The notes under the pieces are model-generated. The model saw only the letters and a program-made list of their open reading frames with translations, ran no database searches and was not told the origin of the DNA. Shown here in pieces: positions 897 through 45,984 of a DNA stretch of 64,000 bases; within the stretch, counting starts at the first letter, position 1, and each line of letters starts with the position of its first letter. Source of the DNA: Stigmatella ashevillena (GTDB taxonomy: Bacteria > Myxococcota > Myxococcia > Myxococcales > Myxococcaceae); NCBI RefSeq assembly GCF_028368975.1, contig NZ_JAQNDM010000002.1:8674425-8738424 (forward strand), read 5' to 3'. A program made the translations under genes and the position numbers.

Positions 897-3800
897 ATGG
901 CTGGCGTTCGACAGGGCGTCTGGTGCTTCCTCGGGCTGATTCCGTGGCTTGTCGGTGCGACCCCCGTGCCGGCAGAGCCGGCGGAGCAACTGGTGGGAGT
1001 CTGGGGCAGCGAGCGCGTCCTCGGGCCACAGCTCCGAGGGGAATTGACGCTGGCGCGGGAGGAAGGCGCCTGGCGCGCGCGCATCGCGGGATTTGAAGTC
1101 CCGGCCCGGGTGGACGGCAGGAAGATTTCCGCCGTCTTCCCAGGAGCGCAGGGCGAGCTGCGGGGGACGCTGGCGGAGGACGGTCAGCGCGTCACCGGCC
1201 ATTGGATTCAACCGCGTGTGCTGATGAGCGGCATGAAGTTCGCCACGCCGGTGGAACTGCGTGCGCTTCAGGCGGGTGTCTGGCGTGGAGAGGTGGCCCC
1301 CCTGGAGGATCGGTTCTCGCTGTACCTGAGCATCCGGAAGCAGCCGGATGGCTCCGTGAGTGCTTTCATCCGCAACCCGGAGCGGAACTTTGGCAACCGG
1401 ATGGTGTTCCGGGTCGGCCTCCAGGGCAGCGCCGTCCGTCTCACGGCCACGCCGGGGAACATGCAGCTCGAGGGCACGTTCGACGCGCAGGCGGGGCGGC
1501 TGTCGCTGCTCCTGCCGTCCATGGACACGGTGTTCGACTTCACCCGCCGGGACCGGACCCAGGCCGTGGGCCTCTATCCCCGTACGCCCGCGCCGGGTCC
1601 CTACGTGTACCAGAGACCCGTCGCAGAGGAAGACGGCTGGGCGACGGCCTCGCTTGCCGATGTCCATATGGACGTCCAGCCCATCCGCCAGCTCGTCCAG
1701 CGCATCCTCGACCAGGAGCCCGGTCCGGAGTCCTCGCCCGCCATCCAGGGATTGCTCGTCGCACGTCACGGGAAGCTGGTGGTCGAGGAGTATTTCCAGG
1801 GCTTCGACAAGGAGCGCCCCCATGACCTGCGCTCCGCGGCGAAGTCCTACGCCTCCGTGCTGATGGGCATTGCGCTGGACCAGGGCGCCCCCTTCACCGT
1901 GGACACGCCCGTCGTCTCGATGTTCCCCGAGTACAAGGGGAGGGTGTCGAACCTGGATGCGCGCAAGCGCAAGCTCACCGTCGCGCACCTGATGACCATG
2001 TCGACGGGGCTTGCCTGCGACGACGAGGACCCGGCCTCGCCTGGAAACGAGGACCGGCTCGAGGAGGGCATACCGGACTGGTACAAGTACACGCTGGACC
2101 TTCCGATGGTGCGCGAGCCCGGGGAGAAGGCCGTGTACTGCTCGGCGAACATCAACCTGCTGGGCGGCGTCCTGCGCAATGCGACCCGCATGTGGATTCC
2201 GGAATTCTTCGCGAAGAACCTCGCCACCCCCCTTCAGATGCGCGGTTACCACATCGACCTGATGCCCACGGGTGAGCAGTACTTGGGGGGCGGCATCTAC
2301 ATGCGCCCGCGCGACGCGCTCAAGCTCGGGCAACTCTTCCTCTCCGGTGGAGTGTGGAATGGACGGCGTGTGGTGAGCCAGCGCTGGGTCGAGCGCTCTA
2401 CCGCGAACCACGCGACGATGGGGGACGGCCGGACGTATGGCTATACGTGGTGGCGCCATGAACTCCATGTCGGCGGCCGCATGTATTCGCAATACGAGGC
2501 CAGCGGAAACGGCGGGCAATTGGTGATGGTTGTTCCCGAGCTGGAGCTCGTCGTGATGTTCACTGCGGGCAACTACAACCACGCAGCCATCTGGAGGAAG
2601 TTCCGGGAGGAGCTCTTGCCCCAGTTCATCCTCGGTGCTGTCACCTCGCAGGCCCCCGTCGCCCAAGCCCAGACGGCGAGTGTTTCGTCTGTAGAGCGCT
2701 ACCAGCAGGTCGATGCGCTGTTCGCCCCGTGGACCGGTACCGCGACGCCGGGATGTGCCGTGGCGATCTCCCGCGATGGTGTGCAGGACTATGCGCAGGG
2801 CTACGGCATGTCGAATCTTGAGTACGGCGTTCCCATGACGCCGGATTCGATCTTCCACGTTGCCTCCATCTCCAAGCAGTTCACCGCTTTTTCGATTGGG
2901 CTGCTGGCACAGGAGGGGAGACTGTCGCTGAAGGACGACATCCGGAAATACCTGCCGGAGATGCCGGACTATGGAAAGAAGATCACCATCGCGAACCTGA
3001 TTCATCACACCAGCGGCCTGCGGGAACAGTTTCATCTGCTGAATCTGGCCGGCTGGCGAGGCGATGATCTGATGACCGAGCAGGACGTGTTGTGGGTCGC
3101 GGCGAAGCAGCGCGGGCTGAACTTCGAACCGGGCGCGGAGTACCTCTACAACAACACGGAGTACACACTGCTGGCAGTGATCGTCAAGCGCGTGTCGGGC
3201 AAGTCGCTGAGGACGTTTGCCGATGAGAGGATTTTTCGGCCGCTGGACATGAAGGACACGCATTTCCATGACGACCACACGGAGATCGTGCCGAAGCGAA
3301 CGTCGGCCTACGCTCCGCGGGAGGGAGAAGGGTGGCGCATCAGCGTCCCGGTGTTTGACCACTACGGCTCCACCAGCTTGTTCACCACGGTGGGTGATTT
3401 GCTGAAATGGGAGGAGAACTTCGTCCACGCGCGTGTGGGCGGACGAGCTCTGGTGGATTCGATGCAGACCGTGGCCACGCTGAGCAGCGGCGCGGCGACC
3501 GGCTACGGCGGCGGCCTGGGCATCGGCACCTATCGCGGATTGCGGATCTTCGGGCACAGCGGCGCGGATGGTGGCTATCGCGCGAATGTCATCGCCTTCC
3601 CGGACCAGAGGCTGGCGATCGTGGCACTGTGTAACGGCTCCACAGCCGTGCCAGGCGAGCTGACGCGGAAAGTGGCTGACGTGTATTTGCGTGAGCGCCT
3701 TGCCGCCGTGACGCCGCCCACCATGAAGGTACCGGAGGCGGCGCTTGCGGCGCTTGTTGGCATCTACTGGAGCCTCTTGTCGGACCAGGTCCTGCGGCTG

Positions 3801-4301
3801 GAGGTGAAGGACGGCGCGCTGCGGCGCGCCGGTTCTCCGGTTCCGCTGGTACCTCTCGACAGCGGCGTGTTCCGCGTGGGCGACTCAACGGAGGAATGGC
3901 GATTTCCTGCACTTGCCGCCGGAGCGCCGGTCGATGCACCGCGTGAACTGCACATCCGGGATACAGATGATTCGCTGCCGCCAAGGGTGTTCACACGGGT
4001 GACCACGCGGGTTCCGGCCGCCTCGGCAAGGGGGCCATTCGCCGGGCAGTATCGCAGCGACGAGGTTGACATGACCTTCACGGTGCTCATAGCGGACGGC
4101 CAGTGGACGATGCGATGGCCGCGTCAGAAGGCCGCTGCGCTCGAAGCCATCGGTGGAGATCGATTCGTCAGCGATGTGCTGGGGACGGTCACCTTCACGC
4201 GATCAGCGTCGGGCGAGGTGGATGGGCTGACGATCAGCACTCCCCGCGTGCGCCGCCTGCGCGCGGAACGGCTTGCCACGGGGAAGGGACGCAGCCGTTG
4301 A
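897..4301 (+). CDS. Exported protein with two tandem serine hydrolase (beta-lactamase/CubicO-type) domains
   Basis: A 1134-residue protein, more than twice the usual length of this family. It starts with a probable signal peptide (hydrophobic stretch about residues 8-25), then a non-catalytic region of about 220 residues. The first penicillin-recognising-enzyme-like domain (about residues 265-575) has SAAK (S313, K316) and a Y-x-x-N-like YCSAN. The second (about 590-960) has SISK (S657, K660), YNN and HSG, the three class C beta-lactamase-like motifs. A C-terminal beta-rich tail follows. The reading frame is continuous across both halves with a natural linker near residues 585-600, so this looks like a real fusion rather than a lost stop codon, although a fusion of two adjacent genes is also possible. 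Probable role: periplasmic or secreted esterase or peptidase. Start chosen 6 bp after the crotonase stop. Confidence 0.82.
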   Translation: MAGVRQGVWCFLGLIPWLVGATPVPAEPAEQLVGVWGSERVLGPQLRGELTLAREEGAWRARIAGFEVPARVDGRKISAVFPGAQGELRGTLAEDGQRVTGHWIQPRVLMSGMKFATPVELRALQAGVWRGEVAPLEDRFSLYLSIRKQPDGSVSAFIRNPERNFGNRMVFRVGLQGSAVRLTATPGNMQLEGTFDAQAGRLSLLLPSMDTVFDFTRRDRTQAVGLYPRTPAPGPYVYQRPVAEEDGWATASLADVHMDVQPIRQLVQRILDQEPGPESSPAIQGLLVARHGKLVVEEYFQGFDKERPHDLRSAAKSYASVLMGIALDQGAPFTVDTPVVSMFPEYKGRVSNLDARKRKLTVAHLMTMSTGLACDDEDPASPGNEDRLEEGIPDWYKYTLDLPMVREPGEKAVYCSANINLLGGVLRNATRMWIPEFFAKNLATPLQMRGYHIDLMPTGEQYLGGGIYMRPRDALKLGQLFLSGGVWNGRRVVSQRWVERSTANHATMGDGRTYGYTWWRHELHVGGRMYSQYEASGNGGQLVMVVPELELVVMFTAGNYNHAAIWRKFREELLPQFILGAVTSQAPVAQAQTASVSSVERYQQVDALFAPWTGTATPGCAVAISRDGVQDYAQGYGMSNLEYGVPMTPDSIFHVASISKQFTAFSIGLLAQEGRLSLKDDIRKYLPEMPDYGKKITIANLIHHTSGLREQFHLLNLAGWRGDDLMTEQDVLWVAAKQRGLNFEPGAEYLYNNTEYTLLAVIVKRVSGKSLRTFADERIFRPLDMKDTHFHDDHTEIVPKRTSAYAPREGEGWRISVPVFDHYGSTSLFTTVGDLLKWEENFVHARVGGRALVDSMQTVATLSSGAATGYGGGLGIGTYRGLRIFGHSGADGGYRANVIAFPDQRLAIVALCNGSTAVPGELTRKVADVYLRERLAAVTPPTMKVPEAALAALVGIYWSLLSDQVLRLEVKDGALRRAGSPVPLVPLDSGVFRVGDSTEEWRFPALAAGAPVDAPRELHIRDTDDSLPPRVFTRVTTRVPAASARGPFAGQYRSDEVDMTFTVLIADGQWTMRWPRQKAAALEAIGGDRFVSDVLGTVTFTRSASGEVDGLTISTPRVRRLRAERLATGKGRSR

Positions 4302-10278: not shown

Positions 10279-10920
10279 CTACGCGAGGTCCTTGCGGGGT
10301 TGCACGCCAAACTTGCGCGCGTACTCCCGGCTGAACTGGTTCGGGCTCTGGTAGCCGACCTCGTACGCGGCATCGGAGACGGAGGCTTCGGCCGTCATGA
10401 GCAGCCGTCGCGCCGCCAGCAGGCGGAGGTCTTTCTGGTACTGAAGCGGCGTAGAGGATGTGACGGTCCGGAAGTGCTTGTGAAACGACGACGTGCTCAT
10501 CCCGACCCTCCGCGCGAGCTCGGGGATCGCGATAGACGAACGGAAGTCGCGGCGAATGTGGGCGATGGCGCGCGCGATGGCGCTCGCGTGGCTGTCATTC
10601 CGGATGAGGCTCCGCAGCATCCCGCCGAACGGCGCGATCAGCAGGCGGTAGTGGATCTCTTTCACGATCAACGGACCGAGAATGCGCGCGTCCGTGGGGA
10701 TGTGGCGAGCGCGAGGTACCGACCGAGTTCGACGTCGAGCAGGAGCGACAGGTACGGCGCTTCAAGGAGCGGTCGCCGAGCGTTGTTTCTTTCCTGCCTT
10801 GGAGGATCAGGCAGACGACGGGTTCATAGAGAGAGGCCTCGAAGGCCGTGGGGCGATGATGCAGAAGGAGCCGCAGACCGGGCAGCGGTTGCACGGATTG
10901 CGGCAAAGTCCCCTTCTGGT
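10279..10920 (-). pseudogene. Broken AraC-family regulator (AraC_N type)
   Basis: Pieces of one regulator are spread over different frames. The amino end (QPLPGLRLLLHHRP through LILQGRKETTLGDRS, about 10780-10910) is in one frame. A short middle piece ([19 protein letters not shown]) is in a second and lacks the intervening family sequence. [17 protein letters not shown] and the full C-terminal helix-turn-helix region (10279-10671) continue in a third. At least two frameshifts and internal deletions are therefore needed. The DNA-binding half is still open from an internal GTG or ATG but lacks its sensor. The gene faces an aldo-keto reductase stump and probably once regulated it. Confidence 0.8.
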
Positions 10921-10925
10921 GCGGA

Positions 10926-11546
10926 ATGAACGAGAGCCTCAAGCGGCTTGGCCTCGACTACGTCGACCTCTACCTCATCCATGCGCCCTTCGAGCGCGAA
11001 CAGCGGCTCGCGCAGTGGCGCGGTCTCATCGAGCTGAAGAAACAGAAAAAGGCGCGCGCCATCGGCGTGAGCAACTTCAGCATCGCGCACCTCGAAGAGC
11101 TCAAGGCCGCAGGGCTCGCGGTGCCTCAAGCGAATCAAATCGAGCTTCATCCCTGGTCGCAGAAGCCTGAGCTGGTTCGCTACCTGGCGGACAACGGCAT
11201 CGCGCCGATCGCGTACAGCAGCCTGGTGCCGCTCTCGACGTGGCGTATCGCGAAGGGGCACGACAGCGCGAAGACGAACGAGATGAGGGCCGCAGGCGAG
11301 CAGGCGGACTCGCCGTTCAAAGCCATCGCGGCGAAGTACGGCAAGAGCGAGGCGCAGGTCCTGCTTCGCTGGGCGATCCAGAAGGGCTACCCCGTGCTGC
11401 CCAAGAGCACCAATCCCGCGCGCATCCGGCAAAACGCCGACGTCTTCTCGTTCGCGATCGACGACAAGGACATGACCGCGATCGAGAAGATGGATCGCGG
11501 CGACGGCGTGGCCTGGGCCGCGGGGGATCCGACCCACGCGCTGTGA
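10926..11546 (+). pseudogene. Aldo-keto reductase lacking its N-terminal quarter
   Basis: 206 residues against about 270-280 for the family. It opens inside the conserved LKRLGLDYVDLYLIH segment, so the N-terminal strand with the catalytic Asp and Tyr and the following Lys are gone; only the His of LIHAP remains from the catalytic tetrad. The rest (GVSNFSIAHL, NQIELHPW, VLPKSTNPARIRQN) is well preserved and ends naturally. The left edge coincides with the head of the broken AraC gene on the other strand, so a deletion at about 10920 probably removed the start of this gene. Confidence 0.8.
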
Positions 11547-11863
11547 GCGAGTCGGGCGTGAGAGCGCCCGCGTCACGAAGGTGCTGAGTCAGCGCCGCGG
11601 ACGGGCGAGGCGGCGCCGCGAGATGCCTCACACGAGCAGCAGGAGCGCGCCCCAGCCCAGGCCCGATGGTGCGCCCGCGCCGGTACTGTAGCCCCTGCCC
11701 AGCTCCTGCGGCGGGTCCACTTTCCCTGGCATGCGCTGAAGTACGGGCTTCACCCATATCCCACCACTCAACCTCAGGAGGAGCTGCCTTGCGAGTTCGG
11801 GAGTCACCGCGCTGCTACGATGCTGCGCGCTGAGTGATCCCCATCCCACTCGACATAGAATTC
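11547..11863. other. Intergenic region upstream of the first NRPS gene
   Basis: About 300 bp without a recognisable gene. It should hold the promoter for the synthetase, but I see no clear -35/-10 pair, operator or hairpin. Confidence 0.4.
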
Positions 11864-14800
11864 ATGCGCCTCCCATCTTTGATTGCACCGCGGCATCACC
11901 CAACGATCGTTGATCTGTTGCAGCTTCGAGCTCGTGAACAGGGGAACCAGATCACCTATCGTTTCCTGGGCTCCGGCGATCCCGAGGGGGCAGTCGAGGA
12001 ATGGAGCCTTGCTCATCTGGACCTCCTGGCTCGTTCGATCGGGGCGGCACTTCAGGAGGCGAACGCCCGGGGCGAACGGGCGTTGCTGATATATGCTCCG
12101 GGCCTGGAGTTCATCGCCGCCTTCATGGGTTGCTTGTATGCTGGCGTCACGGCGGTCCCCTGCTATCCGCCCGATCCTTCGCGGCTCGACCGGACGTTGC
12201 CTCGAATGCGCGCAATCGTCAGAGACTGCGAGGCGCGCTTCATCCTCACGACCACGCCCATCCTGGAGATGGTGGGCGCGCTTGCAACCTACGCCCCGGA
12301 GCTGCTCAAGGTGCGCTGGATTGCAACGGACTCGACGAGCCATGACCTGGCCAGCGCATATCGCCGCCCGGATCTCGATGAGGGGTCCCTGGCTTTCCTT
12401 CAGTACACGTCTGGCTCCACGGGCACTCCCAAGGGGGTGATGGTCAGCCACGCCAACCTCATGCACAACGAGCGGATGATCGAGATGGGATTCGAGATCA
12501 ACCACTCCGCGGTCATCGTGGGGTGGCTGCCGATGTTCCACGACATGGGTCTCATCGGCCAGGTTCTGCAGCCCCTATACCTGGGGGCGTCCGTCACGCT
12601 GATGTCGCCGCTTGACTTCCTGCAACGGCCGTACAGGTGGCTCCAAACAATCTCTCATCTGCGCGCCACGGTGAGCGGCGGGCCCAACTTTGCCTATGAG
12701 CTTTGTGCCCGCAAGGTGACTCCCGAGGAGCGAGCCACGCTCGATCTGAGCTCTTGGGATGTGGCGTTCACGGGGGCCGAGCCGGTCCGCCGGGAGACCC
12801 TCGACCGCTTCAGCGAGACCTTCAGCGCCTGCGGCTTCCGCAGGGGATCCTTCCACGCCTGCTATGGATTGGCGGAGGCGACCCTGTTCGTCTCCGGCGC
12901 GTCCCGGGAGGCGGGCCCTGTCATCCACGAAGTGGACAGGGCGGCCCTGCAGCGCCACCAAGTCGTGGAGGCGCGGGGGGAGGGGGCAGACAGCCAGTGG
13001 ATGGTGTCATCAGGCTGTATTGCCTCGGAGGTGAGGGTGGAGATCGTCAATCCCGAGACTTCCGAGGCGTGCCGCGCCGGTGAGGTGGGGGAGATCTGGG
13101 TGGCAGGGCCCAGCGTGGCCCTGGGGTACTGGGGCCGCCCCGAAGAGACCCAGCAAGTCTTCCATGCGAGGTTGGCCAACAAAGGCACAGGGCCCTTCCT
13201 GAGGACAGGAGATCTGGGCTTCTTCATCGGCGAGGAGCTGTTCATCTCCGGTCGGTTCAAGGACGTCATCATCCTCCGTGGCCGCAATCACTATCCACAG
13301 GATATCGAGCACACGGTGGAGCGGGCACACCCCTGTGTCCGACCGGGGTGCTGTGCCGCCTTCTCCGTGGAGGTCTCGGGCGAGGAGCAGCTGATCGTGG
13401 CCGTCGAGGTGAAGCTGCACGGGGAGGAGCGAGCTGCGACCGTGGCAGACGCCATCCGCCGCGCCGTCGCCGATCACCATGAGGTGCACGTGCACGCTGT
13501 CGCGCTTTTGCGGCCCGGCACCATCCTCAAGACCACGAGCGGCAAGATCCAGCGCCGAGGCTGTCGGCAGCTCTACCTGGAAGGCGGCCTGGAACTGGAG
13601 GAACTCTCCATCCGCGGCGAGCGCGTGAGCTATGTCGCCCCTTGCACGCCCGTGGAGGCCTCGCTCACCCAGATCCTCGCGGAGGTGCTGGAACTCGAGC
13701 GCGTGGGAATGGAGGACGATTTCCTGGTGCTCGGCGGCAACTCGCTCTCCGCGATGCAGGTGTCCGCCCGCATTCGCGACGGTTTGCAGGCCGAGCTGCC
13801 GATCCGCACCCTGTTCGAGCACCCGAAGGTGTCGCACCTCGCTGAGGTGATCGAACGAGCGCTGGGCGCGGCAGCCGAGGGGAGGCGCAGAGAGGGGGTG
13901 CTCCTCACCCGGGCTCCTCGCAACCAACCTCTCCCGCTCTCCCACGCGCAGCAGCGGCTGTGGTTTCTGGACAAGCTCCACCCCGGCTCCGCCGAGTACC
14001 TCGTCTCCGAGGCGCTCCGCCTGGAGGGACCCTTGATGGTGGAGGTGCTGGAGGCCGCGCTCAACGAGGTGGTGCAGCGGCACGAACTCCTGCGCACCTC
14101 GTTCCCGGAGCGGCAAGGCGTGCCCTACCAGCACATTGCTCCCAGCCTGAAGGTGGCGGTGGACGTGGTGGATCTCGGCTCGCTTCCGGCTGAGCGCCGT
14201 GAGGCCGAGGCGCGGCGGCTGGCCACGGCCGAGGCGCGACGACCCTTTGACCTCTCACGCCTCCCACTCGTCCGGTGCAGTGTGTTCCAGCTCACGGGCC
14301 ACGATCACGTGATCTGCTTCGTTCTGCACCACCTCGTTGCGGACGGCTGGTCGCGCAACCTCCTCCTCCGTGAGCTCCATGTGTTGTACGAGGCCCTCTC
14401 CAAGGGCACGGAGGCCGTGCTGCCCACGCTCTCGCTCCAATACGCAGACTACACTGTCTGGCAGCACCAAGCGCTCCTGGAGGCGGAGCGCTCGCGAGGA
14501 ACTGACTACTGGGTCCGACAGCTCGCCAACCTCCCAGGTCCCCTCGATCTGCCGACGGACAAGCACACCCCGAACGGCGTGGAGTCGACCGGTGGCCAGC
14601 TCTCCATGACGCTGGGGAGCGAGCTCACCCATGGGCTTCAGGCGCTCTGCCAGGAGAGAAAGGTGACGCCCTTCATGGTGCTCCTGGCCGCATGGAGCGC
14701 TTTGCTCCACCGCTACACAGGCGCGGAGGACATCCCCGTGGGCTCGCCGATCGCTCTCCGGCCGCGCCTCGAGCTCGAGCCGCTCATTGGCCTCTTTCTC

Positions 14801-17800
14801 AACACGCTGGTGATGCGCACGCGGCCGTCCGCCTCCATGCCATTCCTGGAGTTCCTGGAGCAGATCCGTACCACCGTCCTCGAGGCGGAGGCCCACCGCG
14901 AGGTCCCCTTCGAGCACTTGGTGGCCAGGCTGCAGCCGGAGAGGAACCTCGAGCGGAGCCCCTTTTTCGAAGTGATGGTGAATGTCTTTCAGCTCTCTCC
15001 GGTGCGAGACTTCTCCCCGCAGGGGCTCCAGGCCCGACCTTTCCAGCTCAAGGAGACATCCGCCCGTTTTGCTCTCACCTTGTATGGCCTTGAGCACGCC
15101 GGCCATCTCGAACTCGTCCTGCTCTACCGCCAGGATCGCTTCTCGCCAGCGCGGGCAGCCTGCATGCTGGAGCAGTTCGAGCATCTGCTGCGCCAGGTCA
15201 TGGCGGCGCCTGAGCGGCCGCTCGGCGCCTGCTCGCTGGTGACCCCTCTGTCCCGTCTACGGCTCCCCGATCCGACGGTCACGCTCTCCCTGGTTCCTTA
15301 CGAGCCCGTCCCGAACCTGCTGCGTGCGCAGGCGAGGCACTTCGCGCAGAAGAGCGCCATTTACCACCAGGGCAGGACCTGGAACTACGAGACGCTCGGT
15401 GAGGCCATGGCCGCTCTGGCGCGTGCCCTGCTCGCACGTGGGCTCGAACCGCACGATGTGGTTGCCGTCACCGGGCCAAAAAGCTTTGGCCTCATCGCCG
15501 CCATGTCAGCGGTGCTGGCCGCACGGGGGGTACTGCTCTCCCTTGATCCCAGGCTGCCTGGCGAGCGGCAGCGGCTGATGCTGCGCCGCGCCGGGGCCCG
15601 TTATCTGCTTCACGTTGCCAGCGAAAGTGAGCACCCGGAATCGCTCTTCGATGGACTCACTCGACTCGAGGTCTCCCCTGCGGAGGGCCGCCTCCTGGAT
15701 GCGCCGCCCACGGGGGAGCCTGCCCCGTGCCCACTCCCGGAGATCCAGCCCGAGGACCCGGCCTACATCTTCTTCACCTCAGGGACCACCGGCCTACCCA
15801 AGGCTGTCCTCGGCTGGCACACCGGACTCAGCCATTTCCTGCACTGGCAGCGAGAGTCCTTTGGCATTGGCCCCGCCGATCGCGCGGCACAGCTGACAGC
15901 CCTCTCTTTTGATGTGCTCCTGAGGGATGTCTTCACCCCTCTGACGAGCGGGGCCACGCTCTGCATTCCAGGCGAGGAAGAGCTGGGCGATCCCTGCGCG
16001 CTCCTGAGCTGGATGGAGCACCAACGCATCACCCTCCTGCACACCGTCCCCACGCTGGCCCGGAGCTGGTTGGAGTACGTGCCGGAGCAGGTACACCTGG
16101 GCACGCTCCGATGGGCGTTCTTCGCAGGCGAGCCGCTCTCCCACTCACTGGTGGAGGGCTGGCGGAGCAGGTTTCCAGGAGCTGGCGGCATCGTCAACCT
16201 CTACGGCCCTACCGAGACGACGCTCGCGAAGTGCTGGTTCGTCGTGGGCCCGGAGCCTGAGCCGGGAGTGCAACCCGTAGGCTTGCCACTTCCTCACACT
16301 CAGGCCCTCGTCCTCAACAGGGCGGGCGGGCTGTGTGGCGTGGGAGAGATCGGTGAGATCACGATACGCACTCCCTACCGCAGCCTCGGTTATCTGGGCG
16401 ACCGGGCGGAGACGGAGCAGCGCTTCTTCCCCAACCCCTTCCGCTCAGAGAAGCTCGACGACAAGGACCTGCTCTATCGTACCGGGGACATCGGCCGCTA
16501 CCGGCCGGATGGCAACCTGGAGATCCTTGGCCGCATCGACCATCAGATCAAGGTGGCCGGAGTCCGCATCGAACCCGAAGAGATCGCTGAGGTGCTCTCG
16601 CAGCACGCGGATGTTGGTGCGTGTGCCGTGGTCGCCAGGCATCACCCCCGAGGCCACTTGGCGCTCGTTGCCTATGTGGTTCCCAGCACGGCCCGGGTGC
16701 CTCTGCCCTCGGAGCTCATCACCTTTCTCGGAGAGAGGCTCCCATCCGCGATGGTGCCCTCCCTGGCCGTCGTCCTTGAGCAGCTGCCCCTCACACCCAA
16801 TGGCAAGCTCGATCGACAGGCCCTCCCGGAGCCGGACTGGACAGCCCCCTCACGGAGGGGGGCACCCGTCGAGCCGCGGACCGAGGCCGAGCGGGCGCTC
16901 GCCGGGCTCTGGTGCCGCCTGCTCGGCCTCGCCAGCGTAGGAATCCACGACAGCTTCTTCACCCTCGGCGGCCACTCCCTCCTGGCCATGCGACTGCTCG
17001 CCGAGGTGGAGAAGGCGTTCGGCACCCGGTTTCCCGTGAGGGCCCTCTTCGAGGCCCCGACCATCGCTGGGCTGGCGGCGCTCCTCGAGCAGCGGCAGGC
17101 ACGGCAGGTGCCCGCCCTGGCTGAGGTCACGCAGGGACTGCTCCCGGATGTGGGTCGGCGCTTCGAGCCGTTCCCCTTGACCGATACCCAGGCAGCCTAC
17201 TGGGTTGGGCGCAGCGCAGCGCTGGCCTCGAGCGGCATCTCCACGGAGAGCTACACCGAGTTCGAGCTGGTGGACTTCGACGTGCCACGGCTGAGCGCAG
17301 CGCTGAATCGGCTCATCCAGCGGCATGACATGCTCCGCGCCATCATCCGCCAGGATGGCCGACAGCAGGTCCTGGCGGAGGTCCCCTTCTACACCATCGA
17401 GAGCCTCGATCTGCGCGGCAGATCCGCCAGGGAAGTGGAGACCGCGCTGGCGGACATCCGCGAGAGAATGTCCCATCGCGCGCTGCCTGGCGACCGCTGG
17501 CCGCTCTTCGAGCTACGCGCCTCCCTGCTCGAGGGAGGACGGGTCCGGCTGCACGTGGGCCTGGACGCGCTGATCGTCGACGCATGGAGCGCGCTCCTGC
17601 TGGGCCATGAGCTGATGAGCCTGCTCGAGGCTCCGGAGGAGGTGCCGCCGCCGCCCGAGCTTTCGTTCCGTGACTACGTGCTCGCCGAGCTCGCTTCCCG
17701 GGAGTCCCAGGATTACCACCGCGCCCGGGACTACTGGCGGGCTCGCCTTCCGGAGCTCCCTCCAGCTCCCGAGTTGCCGCTGGTGGACACGGGAAGGAAG

Positions 17801-20800
17801 GCAGGCGGCTCGCTCTTCCGTCGTCGTGCCTCGGTGCTGGCTCAGGCGGACTGGAGCCGCTTGCGCGCCCGCGCCGCCGAGGCGGGCCTCTCTCCCTCGG
17901 CGCTGCTGCTGGCGGCCTACTCGGAGACACTCGCGTGCTGGAGCCGCTCGGCCCGGTTCACCCTCAACGTGACCCTGTACAACCGCCGATCCTCACATCC
18001 GCGCGTCAATGATCTCATCGGAAACTTCAGCACCCTGAGTCTGCTGGAGGTCGATCTGCGCAGCCGCGAGCCGTTTGCAGACAGGGCGCGCCGCCTCCAG
18101 GAGCGGCTCTGGAGTGACCTCGACCACTCGGCCTTCTCCGGAGTACAGCTCATGCGGGAACTCGCGCGCAGCGGGCGCGCCTCGGTCGAGGCCGTCATGC
18201 CCGTCGTCTTCACCAGCACATTGGGAATGCCCACGCCCGCAGGCAGGAAGCTGCGCTTGCCGCCCATCGTCCACGGCATCACCCAGAGCGCCCAGGTGTT
18301 CCTCAACCACGGTGCCTCCGAGCGAGAGGAGGGACTCGAGCTGCGCTGGGACGCGCTCGAAGAGAGGTTCCGGCCTGGCGTGCTGGAGGAGATGTTCTCG
18401 GCCTATGTGCGCCGGCTCGAGCGCCTTGCACGAGAGCCCGCGGCGTGGCTGGAACCCTCTGCCCTGGAGACGCCCCGCCACCTGCTGGCGCTCCAGACGG
18501 GGGAGACGGCCCGACGGCCGGACACGCGGCTCCACTCTTTCTTCGAGGAACGGGCGCGGGAGCAGCCCGAGCGACCCGCGGTCATCTCCCCTGAGCGGAC
18601 GCTCTCCTATGCCGAGCTCTACCGCCTCGCCGTCCACCTGGGAGATCGCTTGCACGCTCGCGGGGCTCGGCCCGGTCAGCTCATCGCGATCCTCATGGAG
18701 AAGGGGTGGGAGCAGGTCCTGGCGGTGCTCGGCGTCCTCTACTCCGGCGCCGCGTACCTTCCCATCGCTCCCTCACTGCCGCCCGAGCGCATTCGCTACC
18801 TGCTGCAAAACGGCGAGGTCCGCTTCGTGCTCACCCAGTCCGTGCTCGGCAGGGCGCTCTGCCTACCGCAGGATGTGGAGTGGATCGCCGTCGACCAGGA
18901 GCAGGCAGCCCTCGACGCCCCGACCCCTGCCGAGCCGCGCCAGCGAAGCGACGACCTGGCCTATGTCATCTACACCTCCGGCTCCACCGGCGAGCCCAAG
19001 GGGGTGATGATCGACCATCGCGGGGCCGTCAACACGATTCTGGATCTTAACAGCCGACTCGGGCTGAGGCCGGGAGATCGCGTGCTCGGCGTCTCCTCGT
19101 TGAGCTTCGATCTGTCTGTGTATGATATCCTGGGGACACTGGCCGCGGGCGCGGCCTTGGTTCTGCCCGAGCCCTCGGGCAACCGCGACCCGCAGCACTG
19201 GGCCCGCTGTATCACTCGGCATGGCGTGACGGTGTGGAACTCGGTGCCAGCGCTCATGGAGATGCTCGTCGAGTGGGCGTCACACATTGACCCGGGAGCA
19301 CTCCGGCCCCTCCGACTCGCCCTGCTGTCGGGTGACTGGATTCCCGTCTCCCTCCCCGAGCGCGTGCGCCGCCTCAACCCAGGGATCGAACTCCTGAGCC
19401 TGGGAGGTGCAACCGAGGCCTCCATCTGGTCCATCGTCTACCCCATCCAGGGCGTTGAGGCGTCCTGGGCCAGCATTCCCTATGGCCGGGCCATGGCCAA
19501 TCAGGGGGTCTACGTGCTGGATGAACACTTCACCCCTCGCCCTGTCTGGGCTGTCGGCGAGCTGTATATTGGCGGCGTGGGGGTCGCCAGGGGCTACTGG
19601 CGCGATTCGGTGCGGACTGAGCAACGGTTCCTGGATCACCCGGAGCTCGGGAGGCTCTATCGCACCGGAGATCTCGGGCGCCTGCTGCCTGACGGTCACA
19701 TCGAGTTCCTGGGACGAGAGGACACTCAGATCAAGCTCCGCGGTCACCGTATCGAGCTGGGAGAGATCGAGGCCACCTTGCTGCGGCACCCCCGGGTGGC
19801 GGAGGCGGTGGCAACGGTGTTCACCGAGCAGGGAGACAGGAGGCTGGTGGCGTATGTGATTGCTCGCGAAGGAGGAGAGGCGCCGACGGAAGAGCGCCTG
19901 CGAGAGCACGTCGCCGCCACCCTTCCTGCGTACATGGTGCCCACGAGGCTGACCTTCCTGGAGTCCCTCCCTCTCACGGCCAACGGCAAGGTGGATCGAA
20001 ATCGCCTGTCGGCCCCGGTGCCGCCGCGCTCCGAGGCGTCCGCAAAGCCACGCACGGAGAAAGAGGAAGCACTGAGCCAGATCTGGCAGGAGGTCCTCGG
20101 CGCTCCAGGAGTCGGCCTCGAGGCCAACTTCTTCGAGCTGGGGGGCGACTCGATCCTCGCAGTCCAAGTCGTGGCGCGCGCAGCGCGGGCCGGGCTGCGG
20201 CTCAGCGTGCGGCAGTTCTTTCAGCATCCGACGATTGCCAGCCTGGCAGCCGTGGTCGAGTCCTGCGCCCCCAAGGCAGAGGCCGAGGAGGAGTTCGACG
20301 GGGAGGTTCCCCTCACCCCCATCCAGCGCTGGTTCTTCGAGCGCGACTTCGCCGATCCCCACCACTGGAATCAGGCCCTGCTCCTGGAGTGGCGCAGGCC
20401 CGTGAGCCCGGCAGCCCTGCGCCAAGCGCTTGCGGCGCTCCTTGAGCACCATGCCGCGTTACGCATGCGCTTCCACCAGGAGCAAGGGCGGTGGGTCCAG
20501 GTGCAGGCACCCTGGAGCGGCGAGGTCGCGTTCGACCAGATGGATCTCTCGGCCCTGGCAGGCGCGGAGCAGGAGGCCCGCCTCCAGGAGGTCGCCGCAG
20601 AGAGACAGGCGAGCCTCTCGCTGGAGCAGGGCCCCGTGCTCCGCGCCACGCTGCTCAATCGCGGCCCGGGGCAAGCCCCCCTGTTCCTTCTCATCGTCCA
20701 CCACCTCGTGGTGGACGGTATCTCCTGGCGAATCCTGTTGCAGGATCTGCAGGTGGCACTCGAGCAGATCGAAGCCTCTCCGAGAGGAGCCGCCCTCGCG

Positions 20801-21649
20801 CTGGGGCCGCGGACGGCCTCGCTCCGGAGCTGGGCAAAGCGGCTGCGCGAGCACGCGCAGTCAACCGAGGTGGCGGAGGCAGCCTCGTACTGGCTCTCGC
20901 TTCCCTGGCAGAAGGTGAGGGGCGCGCCTGTGGACCATCCGGGTGGCGACAGCACGGTGGCCTCCGCTCGGCGGGTGGAGCTCCTCTTTACCCCGGAGGA
21001 GACCCAGGTGCTGCTCCACGGCGCGCCGCGAGTGTGCTCTGCACGGGTTGATGACCTCCTCCTGACCGCCCTGGCCCATGCCATGGCGCGGTGGACGGGC
21101 TCTCCCGCAGTCCACTTCGAGCTCGAGGGACACGGCCGCGAGCCCCTTTTCGAGGACATGGATGTCAGCCGCACGGTGGGTTGGTTCACCTCCCTCTACC
21201 CAGTGCTCCTGGATCTGGGAGGGTGCCAGAGCCCGCGCGAAGAGCTCCAGTCCATCCAGGAGCAGCTGCGCCAGATTCCGGGAAGGGGAGTGCCCTATGG
21301 CCTGGCGCGGTACCTCCGAGGAGAGGAGGGGCTGGCCCGGCGGCTGAGCGCGCTCCCCAAGGCCGAGGTGAGCTTCGACTACCTGGGGCAAACGGACGCG
21401 ATGGCGGCGGGCGCGCTGGCATGGACTCGCCTGCCGGCAGGACCGACGCGCAGCCCGCGGGGGCGTCGGCGAGATCGGGTGGAGGTCATTGGAGTCGTGG
21501 CGGGCGGGCAGCTCCACGTGACATGGACATACAGCATTGGCTTGCACGAGACGGCAACGATGACACGTCTGTCAGACGATTTCGCTCGGTCGCTGCGAGT
21601 GTTGCTTGCAGAGTGTGGGGGGACTGAAAATGAAGGCACATCCTGCTGA
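11864..21649 (+). CDS. Hybrid lipopeptide NRPS: FAAL-ACP-C-A-PCP-Cy-A(Cys)-PCP-E
   Basis: A 3261-residue synthetase. Domains by position: fatty acyl-AMP ligase (11.9-13.64 kb; YTSGSTGTPKGVM, WLPMFHDMGL); carrier (13.65-13.86; GGNSL); condensation (13.92-15.2; HHLVADG); adenylation 1 (15.3-16.83; FFTSGTTGLPKAV, YRTGD, NGKLDR); carrier (16.87-17.1; GGHSL); heterocyclisation (17.16-18.4; HHxxxDG replaced by DALIVD, plus GNFSTL and VVFTSTLGM); adenylation 2 (18.52-20.0); carrier (20.05-20.27; GGDSI); epimerisation (20.3-21.62; HHLVVDG, EGHGRE, SFDYLGQ). Read against GrsA numbering, adenylation 2 has pocket D-L-Y-N-L-S-L-I-W-K, the known cysteine code, which fits Cy. Adenylation 1 reads D-V-R-H-F-A-L-L-A-K, which I cannot assign. 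Expected intermediate: fatty acyl-X-thiazoline, epimerised. No thioesterase or reductase is present, so release needs another protein. Start ATG 11864 preferred over GTG 11834; neither has a strong ribosome site. Confidence 0.93.
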   Translation: MRLPSLIAPRHHPTIVDLLQLRAREQGNQITYRFLGSGDPEGAVEEWSLAHLDLLARSIGAALQEANARGERALLIYAPGLEFIAAFMGCLYAGVTAVPCYPPDPSRLDRTLPRMRAIVRDCEARFILTTTPILEMVGALATYAPELLKVRWIATDSTSHDLASAYRRPDLDEGSLAFLQYTSGSTGTPKGVMVSHANLMHNERMIEMGFEINHSAVIVGWLPMFHDMGLIGQVLQPLYLGASVTLMSPLDFLQRPYRWLQTISHLRATVSGGPNFAYELCARKVTPEERATLDLSSWDVAFTGAEPVRRETLDRFSETFSACGFRRGSFHACYGLAEATLFVSGASREAGPVIHEVDRAALQRHQVVEARGEGADSQWMVSSGCIASEVRVEIVNPETSEACRAGEVGEIWVAGPSVALGYWGRPEETQQVFHARLANKGTGPFLRTGDLGFFIGEELFISGRFKDVIILRGRNHYPQDIEHTVERAHPCVRPGCCAAFSVEVSGEEQLIVAVEVKLHGEERAATVADAIRRAVADHHEVHVHAVALLRPGTILKTTSGKIQRRGCRQLYLEGGLELEELSIRGERVSYVAPCTPVEASLTQILAEVLELERVGMEDDFLVLGGNSLSAMQVSARIRDGLQAELPIRTLFEHPKVSHLAEVIERALGAAAEGRRREGVLLTRAPRNQPLPLSHAQQRLWFLDKLHPGSAEYLVSEALRLEGPLMVEVLEAALNEVVQRHELLRTSFPERQGVPYQHIAPSLKVAVDVVDLGSLPAERREAEARRLATAEARRPFDLSRLPLVRCSVFQLTGHDHVICFVLHHLVADGWSRNLLLRELHVLYEALSKGTEAVLPTLSLQYADYTVWQHQALLEAERSRGTDYWVRQLANLPGPLDLPTDKHTPNGVESTGGQLSMTLGSELTHGLQALCQERKVTPFMVLLAAWSALLHRYTGAEDIPVGSPIALRPRLELEPLIGLFLNTLVMRTRPSASMPFLEFLEQIRTTVLEAEAHREVPFEHLVARLQPERNLERSPFFEVMVNVFQLSPVRDFSPQGLQARPFQLKETSARFALTLYGLEHAGHLELVLLYRQDRFSPARAACMLEQFEHLLRQVMAAPERPLGACSLVTPLSRLRLPDPTVTLSLVPYEPVPNLLRAQARHFAQKSAIYHQGRTWNYETLGEAMAALARALLARGLEPHDVVAVTGPKSFGLIAAMSAVLAARGVLLSLDPRLPGERQRLMLRRAGARYLLHVASESEHPESLFDGLTRLEVSPAEGRLLDAPPTGEPAPCPLPEIQPEDPAYIFFTSGTTGLPKAVLGWHTGLSHFLHWQRESFGIGPADRAAQLTALSFDVLLRDVFTPLTSGATLCIPGEEELGDPCALLSWMEHQRITLLHTVPTLARSWLEYVPEQVHLGTLRWAFFAGEPLSHSLVEGWRSRFPGAGGIVNLYGPTETTLAKCWFVVGPEPEPGVQPVGLPLPHTQALVLNRAGGLCGVGEIGEITIRTPYRSLGYLGDRAETEQRFFPNPFRSEKLDDKDLLYRTGDIGRYRPDGNLEILGRIDHQIKVAGVRIEPEEIAEVLSQHADVGACAVVARHHPRGHLALVAYVVPSTARVPLPSELITFLGERLPSAMVPSLAVVLEQLPLTPNGKLDRQALPEPDWTAPSRRGAPVEPRTEAERALAGLWCRLLGLASVGIHDSFFTLGGHSLLAMRLLAEVEKAFGTRFPVRALFEAPTIAGLAALLEQRQARQVPALAEVTQGLLPDVGRRFEPFPLTDTQAAYWVGRSAALASSGISTESYTEFELVDFDVPRLSAALNRLIQRHDMLRAIIRQDGRQQVLAEVPFYTIESLDLRGRSAREVETALADIRERMSHRALPGDRWPLFELRASLLEGGRVRLHVGLDALIVDAWSALLLGHELMSLLEAPEEVPPPPELSFRDYVLAELASRESQDYHRARDYWRARLPELPPAPELPLVDTGRKAGGSLFRRRASVLAQADWSRLRARAAEAGLSPSALLLAAYSETLACWSRSARFTLNVTLYNRRSSHPRVNDLIGNFSTLSLLEVDLRSREPFADRARRLQERLWSDLDHSAFSGVQLMRELARSGRASVEAVMPVVFTSTLGMPTPAGRKLRLPPIVHGITQSAQVFLNHGASEREEGLELRWDALEERFRPGVLEEMFSAYVRRLERLAREPAAWLEPSALETPRHLLALQTGETARRPDTRLHSFFEERAREQPERPAVISPERTLSYAELYRLAVHLGDRLHARGARPGQLIAILMEKGWEQVLAVLGVLYSGAAYLPIAPSLPPERIRYLLQNGEVRFVLTQSVLGRALCLPQDVEWIAVDQEQAALDAPTPAEPRQRSDDLAYVIYTSGSTGEPKGVMIDHRGAVNTILDLNSRLGLRPGDRVLGVSSLSFDLSVYDILGTLAAGAALVLPEPSGNRDPQHWARCITRHGVTVWNSVPALMEMLVEWASHIDPGALRPLRLALLSGDWIPVSLPERVRRLNPGIELLSLGGATEASIWSIVYPIQGVEASWASIPYGRAMANQGVYVLDEHFTPRPVWAVGELYIGGVGVARGYWRDSVRTEQRFLDHPELGRLYRTGDLGRLLPDGHIEFLGREDTQIKLRGHRIELGEIEATLLRHPRVAEAVATVFTEQGDRRLVAYVIAREGGEAPTEERLREHVAATLPAYMVPTRLTFLESLPLTANGKVDRNRLSAPVPPRSEASAKPRTEKEEALSQIWQEVLGAPGVGLEANFFELGGDSILAVQVVARAARAGLRLSVRQFFQHPTIASLAAVVESCAPKAEAEEEFDGEVPLTPIQRWFFERDFADPHHWNQALLLEWRRPVSPAALRQALAALLEHHAALRMRFHQEQGRWVQVQAPWSGEVAFDQMDLSALAGAEQEARLQEVAAERQASLSLEQGPVLRATLLNRGPGQAPLFLLIVHHLVVDGISWRILLQDLQVALEQIEASPRGAALALGPRTASLRSWAKRLREHAQSTEVAEAASYWLSLPWQKVRGAPVDHPGGDSTVASARRVELLFTPEETQVLLHGAPRVCSARVDDLLLTALAHAMARWTGSPAVHFELEGHGREPLFEDMDVSRTVGWFTSLYPVLLDLGGCQSPREELQSIQEQLRQIPGRGVPYGLARYLRGEEGLARRLSALPKAEVSFDYLGQTDAMAAGALAWTRLPAGPTRSPRGRRRDRVEVIGVVAGGQLHVTWTYSIGLHETATMTRLSDDFARSLRVLLAECGGTENEGTSC

Positions 21650-22469
21650 GGGCCCGATGGGAGCTGTGGGGCACCTCCGCTGTCCGCGTGACGGATCGCG
21701 GCTGAGCGTGTCGGAGGAGCACGCGCTGGTGTGCGAAACGAGCGGGCATCCCGTTGGGGCGCGCTGGGGGATCTTCGACTTCTCACCCCCTGGCTCACCT
21801 CATGCTTTTGGCCCCTGGGTGACGCGGCTGTACGACACGCTCCTGGTGAGGTGGCACCAGCCCCGGCTCTTTGGAGTGAGCTACCGGGAGCTCGTGGAGT
21901 TTCACGTGCAAGCCATGGGACTGGCCCGAGGCGGCACGATCCTCGATGTGCCCTGCGGCTCGGGGCTCTTCTCCATCGGTGCAGCCGCGCAAGCGGGTGT
22001 ACGGCACTACCTGGGTGTGGATATCTCGCTGCCCATGCTGCAGGTGGCAAGAAAGCGCTGCACGCGTTACGGCCTGGAGCCCACCCTGACACGGGCCGAA
22101 CTGTGCGCGCTTCCGCTCGCTGCGGAATCCGTGGACGTGGTGATCTGCAGCCTGGGGTTACAGTTCATTGAGCGGCGGGAAGAGGCTCTCCGGGAGATGC
22201 GGCGCGTGCTGCGGCCCGGAGGGTGGCTGCTCGGCGTGGCCCCGGCGCTCGGCCTCCACCCTCGCTATGATCGGCGACACGCGCGCCGCGCGCGCAAGGA
22301 CTTTCCTGTGGCGCCTGCCGAGCTGGGCGCAGAGCTCGAACTCGCCAGGTTCGTGCTGGATGAGCCCCTGCGCACCCAGGGGGCGCTGGTCTTCTGGAAG
22401 GCGCAAGCCTTTCAGGCGGGCGCATGCTCAAGCCGGTCCGAGAGGACGGCGGCACGACGGGGTGAGTGA
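21630..22469 (+). CDS. Class I SAM-dependent methyltransferase, coupled to the NRPS
   Basis: 279 residues. A short N-terminal segment with CPRDG and a further cysteine resembles the Trm112-like/RlmA-type front domain. A Methyltransf_11 fold follows, with SAM motif LDVPCGSG near residue 104, GVDIS, and LRPGGWLL. The start at 21630 has a GGGGGG ribosome site about 7 bases upstream and overlaps the end of the NRPS gene by 20 bp, so translation is probably coupled. This places it in the lipopeptide pathway as a tailoring enzyme, N-, O- or C-methylation unknown. The low-complexity basic C terminus is atypical. Confidence 0.85.
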   Translation: MKAHPAEGPMGAVGHLRCPRDGSRLSVSEEHALVCETSGHPVGARWGIFDFSPPGSPHAFGPWVTRLYDTLLVRWHQPRLFGVSYRELVEFHVQAMGLARGGTILDVPCGSGLFSIGAAAQAGVRHYLGVDISLPMLQVARKRCTRYGLEPTLTRAELCALPLAAESVDVVICSLGLQFIERREEALREMRRVLRPGGWLLGVAPALGLHPRYDRRHARRARKDFPVAPAELGAELELARFVLDEPLRTQGALVFWKAQAFQAGACSSRSERTAARRGE

Positions 22470-22483
22470 GAAACAGGGCCAGA

Positions 22484-22795
22484 TCAGCCCGGGCGCGTCG
22501 GCAGCCGAACCGAGTACTCGGTGCCCGAGCGGAAGGGCATCGTCATCGACGCGAAACCGTGGCGCGGCTCGCGCACGTAGGCGATGTAGTCGCGGTAGTC
22601 GGCCTTGAAGGAGCCGACGTTGTCGGTCACCACCACGGCGCCCAGACGCAGGGCAGGGGCAACGAGCTTCAGCACGTTGAGGGTCGGCAGGGGAGACACA
22701 TCGTTGAGCATGAAGTCCACCTCGCCGAGGTCCGCCCGCAGCGTCTCCGTCGCATCACCCACGCGAATCTCGGCGATAGGTGGAGTCGCTGAGCG
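22484..22795 (-). pseudogene. C-terminal stump of an O-methyltransferase
   Basis: About 100 residues corresponding to the last half of a small (Methyltransf_24/OMT_3) O-methyltransferase: EIRVGDATETLRADLGEVDF, then VLKLVAPALRLGAVVVTDNV and ADYRDYIAYVREP. The SAM-binding N-terminal half is missing, and a stop codon lies just upstream of the homologous part. It is convergent with the NRPS-linked methyltransferase. An ATG at 22762 could still start a 92-residue product, but this would lack the cofactor site. Confidence 0.7.
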
Positions 22796-22884
22796 CTACG
22801 CGCACCAGCGCGCTCCCGGGCCTCGCGACTTTTCTCGGGGGTGGGGTTGGCGCTTCCACGGGGCCCTCGGATTAGGCTGGAAGG

Positions 22885-23469
22885 ATGGCCCTTCCTCCCC
22901 ATGAGTACGCCCGTGCGGCGCTGGATGCGGAACTGCACGTGCAGGTCACGGTGGACCGCGTCGAGCTTCCCCCCACCACCCCGGGCGAGGCGGTGGTGAC
23001 GGGACACATCGCCCGGGTGTTCCGAGGCTCGCCCTCGCTGTGCTCCACGCCTGTCTCCTTCACGGTCCCTGTATGCCGTGAAGACGATGTCATGACTCCC
23101 AGCGGAATCATCTGGACGCTTCCCGAGATGCTGGAGGAAGCCCCGGTGATGGAGGTCTTCCTCGATTCGCACGAGGGGGGCTTCCGCAATGCCTCCTACG
23201 ACAACCACCTCCTCAGGGTGGATAGCTCTCTCAGGCGGACCATGGGAGCGCAACGATGTGACCAAGAGTTCAATCTGGTAGGCCTCGCTGACTGGTGCTC
23301 GTCCGAGAAGCTGGTTCCTGGGATTCAGCAGGAGTCAATGCGGCTCTGCCCTCGACGGCGGGTGGGTGGGCGCCAATACTGCTGGAATGCTCACGCTCTA
23401 CGGTTTCGGCTGCGTCAACTCGAAGGTAGTGGGGGTCACGCGCGATCTGCGTGTTCTGTGGACGCTTGA
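22885..23469 (+). CDS. Hypothetical protein, 3' end doubtful
   Basis: An open frame of 194 residues with an ATG at 22885. The first ~130 residues have ordinary coding character (about HVQVTVDRVELPPTTPGEA and IWTLPEMLEEAPVMEVFLDS), suggesting a beta-rich small protein. The last ~30 residues overlap the start of the downstream glutathione transferase by 83 bp and look like non-coding frame, so the original stop was probably lost by a frameshift near 23300. No family recognised and no signal peptide. Confidence 0.45.
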   Translation: MALPPHEYARAALDAELHVQVTVDRVELPPTTPGEAVVTGHIARVFRGSPSLCSTPVSFTVPVCREDDVMTPSGIIWTLPEMLEEAPVMEVFLDSHEGGFRNASYDNHLLRVDSSLRRTMGAQRCDQEFNLVGLADWCSSEKLVPGIQQESMRLCPRRRVGGRQYCWNAHALRFRLRQLEGSGGHARSACSVDA

Positions 23470-39092: not shown

Positions 39093-39325
39093 GGTTCACT
39101 CCCACATCCTGCTCGTATGCGTTCCTCGTGCCTTCTACCAGATGAGGGTGCCGCGGATGCTCATTCGCTGTGGGACACAGTCCGGGGCGTCCGTGAGACA
39201 AGGGCCGGATCCATTCAAGGCTGTCGCAGTGGATTTTCGCGTGTTAGAGGTCCGGGGAAGCGAGCTGTGCCGGACGGCCCTCCGCGCGGCAGCCGCGAGG
39301 TGTGTCATTGATTCCAGGAGCTCCC

Positions 39326-44473: not shown

Positions 44474-45984
44474 CGACCGCATTCCCGATGTCGTTCGCCC
44501 AGCAGCGATTGTGCTTCCTGCACCGGATGGACCCCACCGGGGCGGCCCACGCCACCGTTCGCTGCCACCGCGTGACGGGGCCCCTGGACCCGCAAGCCCT
44601 GCGGGAGGCCCTGGACGTGCTGGTGGCCCGGCACGAACCGCTGCGCACCGTCTTCCCGCTGGGGACGCACCAGCAGGTGTCTCCGGAAGGGCACGGGCAT
44701 GTTCACTTCCTGGAGGTCGCGACCGAGGCCGAGGCCCTGCGACGCGCGCACGAGGAGGCGGCCCGGCCGTTCGAGCTGGAGCACGGTCCCTTGCTGCGAC
44801 TCACCGTGATGCGGCTGGAACCCCGGACGCACGTCCTCGTCTTCGCCGTGCACCTGTTGGTGGCGGACGGCGCATCGCTCCAGGTCTTCACCGAGGAGCT
44901 GGCCATCGCGTACCGGGCGGCGCTCCTGGGGGAACCCACCGGCCTGCCCGAGCTGCCCGTGCAGTACGTGGACTGGGCCGCATGGCAGCGCGAGCAGCTC
45001 ACCGCCGAGCGGCGCGAATCGCTGTCGCACTGGTGGAGGGAGCAGCTGTCGGGCGTCCCCCTGTTCCTAGACCTCGTCTCCCTGCGTCCCGTGCTGGGGC
45101 GGGGACGGCGCATGCACCGGGTGCTGCCCGCCGCCGTCGCCCACGGCGTGCGCGCCCTCGCGAGCACCGAGCGTCAGACGGTGTTCACGGTGCTGGCCGC
45201 CGCCTGCGGCCTCGTGCTCGGGCACCGTGCGGGACGGGAGCAGGTGCTGCTGGGACTGGCCGTGGCCAACCGGGACCTGCCCGAGGTTGAGCGGGTGCTC
45301 GGGTTCTTCGTCAACACCGTCGTGCTCCAGGTGGACCTGCGCGGCGACCCCGATTTTCGCGAGCTGCTCACCCGGGTGGCGGCGGCCACGGTGGCTGCAT
45401 ACGCGCACAAGGACCTGCCCTTTGAGCAGCTCGTCGCGGACCTGGCCCCGCCGAGAGACCCGACGCGGTCTCCCGTCGTCCAGGTCAACTTCGCCTACCA
45501 TCCGGCAGGCACGGCGGGAGCACTGTCATTGCACGGCTGTGAGGTGACGGAGCCCCTGCTGGACCTCCCCTCCGCGAAGTTCGAGCTCACCTTGCGGGTG
45601 GAGGAACGCTCCGACGGCCCGTACACCGTGTGGGCCGAATTCGATGAGAGTCTCTTCGACCCCGCCTTCATCGCGGGGCTGCTCGCGGCCTACGAGGAGG
45701 TCCTGCGGACCGCGACCCCCCATGCGCGGACATCGCTTCCGCGCTCCCCGATGGGGACGAGGGAACAACACCTCAGCCGCATTTTCGCTGACGTGCTGAA
45801 GGTCGCCTCGGTCGCTCCGGACGACGACTTCTTCCAGTGCGGCGGCCATTCCTTGCAGCTTGTCGAAGTCGCGCTCCGAATCCGGAGCGAAATGGGCGAG
45901 GACCTCAGCCTGCGCGAGCTGTACCAGCACCCCACCGTGGCGGGCGCCGCTGCCCGGCTCGACCGAACAGGAGCACCCCGATGA
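44470..45984 (+). CDS. Free-standing C-PCP protein with degenerate HHxxxDG motif
   Basis: 504 residues: a condensation-superfamily domain (residues 1-425; FPMSFAQQRLCFLHRMDP, RHEPLRTVF, FFVNTVVLQVDLRG, DLPFEQLVADL) and a carrier domain (about 430-495; GGHSL). The active-site motif reads H-L-L-V-A-D-G (128-134): the second, catalytic histidine of HHxxxDG is leucine (CTG at 44854-44856). In condensation domains this residue is needed for peptide bond formation; degenerate relatives such as the X domains of glycopeptide synthetases instead recruit P450s. Here the next gene, overlapping by ATGA, is a P450. No adenylation domain accompanies it, so its carrier must be loaded in trans or by peptide transfer. 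Confidence 0.9.
   Translation: MTTAFPMSFAQQRLCFLHRMDPTGAAHATVRCHRVTGPLDPQALREALDVLVARHEPLRTVFPLGTHQQVSPEGHGHVHFLEVATEAEALRRAHEEAARPFELEHGPLLRLTVMRLEPRTHVLVFAVHLLVADGASLQVFTEELAIAYRAALLGEPTGLPELPVQYVDWAAWQREQLTAERRESLSHWWREQLSGVPLFLDLVSLRPVLGRGRRMHRVLPAAVAHGVRALASTERQTVFTVLAAACGLVLGHRAGREQVLLGLAVANRDLPEVERVLGFFVNTVVLQVDLRGDPDFRELLTRVAAATVAAYAHKDLPFEQLVADLAPPRDPTRSPVVQVNFAYHPAGTAGALSLHGCEVTEPLLDLPSAKFELTLRVEERSDGPYTVWAEFDESLFDPAFIAGLLAAYEEVLRTATPHARTSLPRSPMGTREQHLSRIFADVLKVASVAPDDDFFQCGGHSLQLVEVALRIRSEMGEDLSLRELYQHPTVAGAAARLDRTGAPR

Follow-up and report, generated by a model that had tools for sequence, protein, structure and literature searches.

How does a lipopeptide assembly line finish its product when the last module joins a cyclization-family (Cy) domain to a cysteine-type adenylation domain and then ends in an epimerization (E) domain? 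The synthetase considered here lies in a 64,000-nucleotide stretch of DNA (the window). Pfam resolves three AMP-binding, three Condensation and three PP-binding stretches in it and, together with motif patterns, bears out the single-protein order FAAL-ACP-C-A-PCP-Cy-A-PCP-E given in a preliminary description, as well as the terminal position of E and the lack of a cis-acting release domain (Table 1). The mechanical open reading frame (11834–21649, forward strand, 3271 residues) begins with a GTG; since the ATG at 11864 is common to the source genome and a sister genome (G096) and the GTG is not conserved, the synthetase likely runs from 11864 to the stop at 21649. The preliminary description had extended this one protein from 11864 to 22469; its start is retained, but 22469 is the stop of a methyltransferase gene whose ATG at 21630 lies inside the 3′ end of the synthetase.

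Table 1. Features of the synthetase–methyltransferase pair, in window coordinates.
Feature	Position	Strand	Basis
FAAL-ACP-C-A-PCP-Cy-A-PCP-E synthetase	11864..21649	+	ORF and Pfam; likely start from conservation in G096
Fatty acyl-AMP ligase (FAAL) domain, predicted	11891..13603	+	Pfam AMP-binding; NCBIfam FAAL models
Acyl carrier protein (ACP), LGGNSL	13646..13873	+	Pfam, motif pattern; bounds set by hand
Condensation (C) domain, HHLVADGWS	13922..15268	+	Pfam, motif pattern
A1 adenylation domain, code DVRHFALLAK, substrate X	15341..16858	+	Pfam, code extraction
PCP1, LGGHSL	16895..17089	+	Pfam, motif pattern
Cy-family domain, DALIVDAWS	17162..18445	+	Alignment to solved Cy domains, motif
Thr2127 (P0001 numbering), dyad Thr kept	18212..18214	+	Cy alignment
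Asn2158 (P0001 numbering) in place of the dyad Asp of characterised Cy domains	18305..18307	+	Cy alignment
A2 adenylation domain, cysteine code DLYNLSLIWK	18542..19993	+	Pfam, code extraction
PCP2, LGGDS	20051..20239	+	Pfam, motif pattern
E domain, HHLVVDGIS / EGHGRE / VSFDYLGQ	20279..21619	+	Profile match, motif pattern
Short C-terminal tail without DFP-type linker motif	21620..21646	+	Comparison of E-domain ends
SAM-dependent methyltransferase, start overlapping synthetase end	21630..22469	+	ORF, Pfam

The N-terminal ligase scores 383–531 bits against the NCBIfam FAAL models, yet stays under their whole-protein cut-offs; fused with an ACP N-terminally to a C domain, as in FAAL-loaded lipopeptide synthetases, it would make this protein one of them. 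The adenylation codes were placed by hand following the GrsA numbering. Code extraction agrees with the earlier reading of the second pocket as DLYNLSLIWK, the cysteine code; the pocket is the same in the source genome and in G096 and reads DLWNLSLIWK in a third orthologue (G100, from Hyalangium versicolor), while the A1 code, DVRHFALLAK, is identical in all three. Neither DVRHFALLAK nor four near spellings were found in the open-access papers searched, and comparison of A1 with the PDB named no specific relative, the high score of LgrA being a sum over two domains. An A1-like frame in G155 proved to be a distinct protein of 1100 residues.

The best solved relatives of the Cy-family domain are the Cy domains of EpoB, Irp2 and BmdB, followed by PchE and HMWP2. 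A pattern search recovers the DALIVD motif noted previously (DALIVDAWS, the DxxxxD signature, with its first Asp at residue 1911), and the dyad Thr is present, as it is in 146 of 162 other aligned domains. The dyad Asp (BmdB D1226 and EpoB D449, with which PchE D480 is aligned in PMC8807600) is replaced by Asn in all three orthologues, where alignments place Asp in EpoB, Irp2 and BmdB, and for this reason we class the domain as Cy-family rather than as a proven cyclising domain. Among 73 myxobacterial Cy domains (from 41 of 195 Myxococcota genomes, with at most nine candidates scored per genome; two, L049 and L052, end at contig ends), the site holds Asp in 69, Asn in three and Glu in one, the three Asn domains being exactly the three that are followed by E, that is, the three orthologues. 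A public set comprised 97 Cy domains from 77 genome_contigs loci, drawn from the best 80 of 424 relatives of a query that included the E domain; the 92 not followed by E have Asp (88), Glu (three) or a gap (one). Asn is absent from the other 70 myxobacterial and 96 public domains. It is kept across orthologues that are 55% identical over Cy-A-PCP-E, and it is a single evolutionary event, not repeated evidence. Three further sites differ in the orthologues: the helper Gln is Gly (as in six of the 162 other domains), the latch Thr is Ser or Gly (elsewhere Thr in 142 and Ala in 20) and the floor-loop Asp is Asn. Since Gly replaces the helper Gln elsewhere and the floor-loop site is variable (Asp in 110 of the 162), the dyad Asn is the sole family-specific change.

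A full-size E domain after a Cy module had been called uncommon, and within the Myxococcota sample it is: only the three orthologues, one family among the 73 Cy domains, have an E domain later in the same frame. Five of the 97 public domains (L125–L129) are followed by A-PCP-E, a share that is not a frequency because the query held the E domain and the set comes from the best 80 of 424 relatives. L129 is the H. versicolor record, its Cy domain being 100% identical to that of G100, and it has the dyad Asn; L125, L126 and L127 have Asp and L128 has Glu. The arrangement is therefore not unique to this synthetase family, as L125–L128 demonstrate, and loss of the dyad Asp does not always accompany E, since L125, L126 and L127 keep it. 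L128 is changed at both dyad sites (Glu for Asp, Asn for Thr), so a link between E and loss of the Asp may still hold in part, though few sequences bear on it. A FastTree phylogeny of 170 Cy domains, with long branches and many open forks, requires at least three gains of E. When 292 cyanobacterial genomes were surveyed, with no more than two candidates scored per genome, the query alone was matched at high identity over the span from Cy to E, and other rows that reached the E part were 36–52% identical. Searches of open-access literature for terminal E and for Cy-A-PCP-E yielded no title or abstract opening that describes the present arrangement.

Several of these loci have features of their own. 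L125 (8378–13036) and L127 (frame from 8372) are cyanobacterial Cy-A-PCP-E proteins with the Cy Asp intact and a tail-less E, and the gene after that of L125 appears, by eye, transporter-like. L128 (4318–14868) is an acidobacterial A-PCP-Cy-A-PCP-E protein with a tailed E, followed by a C-A-PCP gene; its locus has what looks by eye, from the letters, like a thioesterase-like end. Tandem Cy-type domains occur within giant frames of five myxobacterial genomes (L113–L117).

What the dyad Asn does to ring closure is the main uncertainty at this locus. Mutation of the Asp–Thr dyad or of the nearby Gln severely affects cyclodehydration, according to PMC9547227, and PchE D480A is described in PMC8807600 as especially harmful to cyclization while also nearly abolishing peptide formation; no tested case of Asn at this Asp was found in the literature consulted. 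With the Asp replaced in all three orthologues, we predict slow ring closure to a thiazoline or none at all, the main product being an open thiol peptide, and, given the effect of D480A on peptide formation, the Asn enzyme might also condense poorly. The preliminary description had proposed an epimerised acyl-X-thiazoline: the cysteine code, the Cy-family DxxxxD motif and the terminal E agree with it, but the thiazoline itself had been judged on DxxxxD and becomes doubtful with Asn at the dyad in all three orthologues. The Cy domain might nonetheless cyclise despite its Asn, with E setting or equilibrating C4 of the thiazoline and an acyl-X-thiazoline being freed in trans from an assembly line that is not truncated. 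DxxxxD, the dyad Thr and most other Cy features are retained, and Cy-A-PCP-E with an intact dyad exists in L125, L126 and L127, which shows that a ring-dead Cy is no precondition for E; the change at the helper Gln is not telling either, both because Gly occurs in other rows and because BmdB functions naturally without that Gln, as stated in PMC9547227. These points count against an open product. Set against ring formation are the Asn itself, which the three orthologues share and which every other row with a residue at that site lacks, and the pyochelin-type route to a D-thiazoline, which, as outlined in PMC6604713, uses a different, methyltransferase-like epimerase inside the A domain. With ring closure the main uncertainty, we regard a thiazoline product as unlikely while still a serious contender.

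The E domain has the expected HHxxxDG motif (HHLVVDGIS) and EGHGRE, is preceded by an LGGDS carrier and shares 47–50% identity with several further E domains from the genus. A search of seven genomes of the genus returned 30 E domains at E ≤ 1e-60, ten of them at a protein C-terminus and 20 internal. Only 8, 9 and 11 residues follow the match in the three orthologues, versus 30–36 residues with a DFP-type motif in all seven other C-terminal E domains (two of which, L237 and L240, gave no match to the HHxxxD pattern). A similar linker follows 16 of the internal domains (DFP in 15, SFP in one) but not the other four (L244, L245, L254 and L255); absence of the linker is consequently not unique to this family overall, only among protein-terminal E domains of the genus. 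Outside the genus, the tail is present on the E domain of L128 and absent in L125 and L127. Because E stops 8–11 residues before the end of the protein without the usual tail, this end looks like the real end of the line rather than a hand-over point, and terminal E domains without a thioesterase are known from the thermoactinoamide synthetase ThdB and from AnaPS (as described in PMC7253712).

Hand-over to an orphan DCL partner, raised in the preliminary description, is correspondingly weakened. In such a split assembly line E would pass its chain to a C domain encoded elsewhere, for which the genome (10.95 Mb) offers 53 Condensation matches, and a review states that E invariably has a DCL domain downstream (PMC11546977). 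None of the three orthologues, however, has a C-terminal linker or COM-like donor segment of the kind that L128 and the seven other C-terminal E domains of the genus carry, and their neighbouring genes differ in all three genomes. In section 10 of PMC12402864 it is said that COM domains always occur together with an integrated E domain. It was correct, locally, that nothing but a methyltransferase follows the synthetase; a second NRPS begins 17 kb further on (39302–47180, forward strand; NRPS part 39302–45984) and consists of A-PCP-C-A-PCP, then C-PCP, then a P450. Its three frames contain neither an A domain for the last PCP nor a thioesterase. The C-PCP protein (44470–45984) was rejected as a dedicated partner: at E ≤ 1e-90, with at most seven candidates scored per genome, it is matched in 27 of the 195 Myxococcota genomes but not in G096. 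We consider a split line improbable.

The synthetase and methyltransferase form a block of 10,658 nt (11809–22466) that is 94.7% identical in the congener G096, where the genes on either side differ from those in the window. The G100 synthetase is C-A-PCP-C-A-PCP-Cy-A-PCP-E: it has an extra C-A-PCP where FAAL-ACP stands here and keeps the last two modules with their A1 and cysteine-type codes, and its methyltransferase homologue (48%) lies on the opposite strand, overlapping the 3′ end of the synthetase. For the methyltransferase up to 12 candidates were scored per genome, and at E ≤ 1e-25 three of the 195 Myxococcota genomes gave matches; these are also the three with the best Cy matches. Between the source genome and G096 the overall dN/dS is 0.205; the Cy domain has 0.17, the E domain 0.24 and PCP1 the highest single-domain value (0.37, from few sites). 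The preliminary description had allowed that the cluster might be truncated, or that relatives keep a release module lost here; neither G096 nor G100 carries an added release module at the synthetase locus, and flank searches in seven genomes of the genus gave partial matches only, with no empty insertion site. A truncated or decaying cluster that makes nothing useful is very improbable, despite the missing release domain and the upstream aldo-keto reductase and AraC frames that match their families only in part, because the block is conserved, the same C-terminal architecture and ending recur among different neighbours in three genomes, the G096 frame is free of stops and dN/dS is low.

Pfam found no release function in the genes flanking the pair (an aldo-keto reductase frame, GSTs, a short-chain dehydrogenase and regulators). 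A protein of 1134 residues with two beta-lactamase-family stretches (897–4301, forward strand) was a candidate for release, given that surugamide is cyclised by SurE, a standalone PBP-like enzyme (PMC11191687); it was rejected when tblastn gave no match at 1e-3 in 30.0 kb (G096) and 33.0 kb (G100) around the synthetases. The genome has 21 PF00975 matches, 18 above the cut-off, four of which lie in frames of 263–318 residues, and none in the window. Release in trans would be consistent with such free thioesterases, no one of which is assigned to the step. Elsewhere in the window, the two frames in 10279–11546 are partial family matches, one to an AraC-type HTH and no more, the other to an aldo-keto reductase profile without its first 91 positions; a second copy of 22785–23214 (430 nt), 97% identical, lies at another place in the genome; the frame 22885–23469 has no Pfam match; and 62592–63991, 40 kb from the synthetase here, is 68–72% identical to DNA about 7 kb from the G100 synthetase.

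Starting from the domain order, the cysteine code, the Asn substitution, the missing tail and the conserved two-gene block, we favour, at a little under even chances, a self-contained two-gene lipodipeptide system with poor or absent ring closure. FAAL would activate a fatty acid and load it onto the ACP, the C domain would join the acyl chain to residue X, and the Cy-family domain would join acyl-X to cysteine, probably as an open peptide. The terminal E would then epimerise the cysteinyl residue attached to the PCP, yielding either acyl-X-D-Cys or a mixture of L and D forms, and the chain would leave in trans through a separate putative enzyme, the adjacent methyltransferase probably tailoring the chain or the product. 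Going further, and more tentatively, evolution may have turned Cy into a plain cysteine-condensing domain by the Asp-to-Asn change which, with a tail-less terminal E, would form a minimal end-of-line module for acylated D-cysteine thiols, in a two-gene cassette able to sit at different places in a genome.

If this lipodipeptide reading is true, DxxxxD and a cysteine code are insufficient to predict a thiazoline from sequence, and the family would serve as a natural experiment on which Cy residue is responsible for cyclization rather than for condensation. In addition, it would be an exception to the COM statement in section 10 of PMC12402864. The two genes should be easy to express, making the ring question directly testable.

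Among known systems, the Cy domains of EpoB (epothilone), Irp2/HMWP2 (yersiniabactin), BmdB (bacillamide) and PchE (pyochelin) resemble the present domain in DxxxxD and the dyad Thr and differ from it in carrying the dyad Asp (for PchE by the D480 equivalence given in PMC8807600). The D-thiazoline modules of the PchE, HMWP2 and MicC type likewise pair a Cy module for cysteine with epimerisation, but their epimerase is methyltransferase-like and lies inside the A domain, as presented in PMC6604713 and PMC8807600, whereas the one here is a C-family E domain placed after the PCP. The same Cy-A-PCP-E order recurs in the two cyanobacterial records (L125 and L127) and in MAGs of a Pyrinomonadaceae member (L126) and an acidobacterium (L128); L125 and L127 also end without a tail, yet, with L126, they keep the Asp that is Asn here, and L128 departs from the window in its Glu and Asn at the dyad sites and in its tailed E before a C-A-PCP gene. 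ThdB and AnaPS share the ending, a terminal E with no thioesterase; their products are cyclised peptides (in the account of PMC7253712), whereas here acylation of the N-terminus is expected and the line closes with a Cy-type module.
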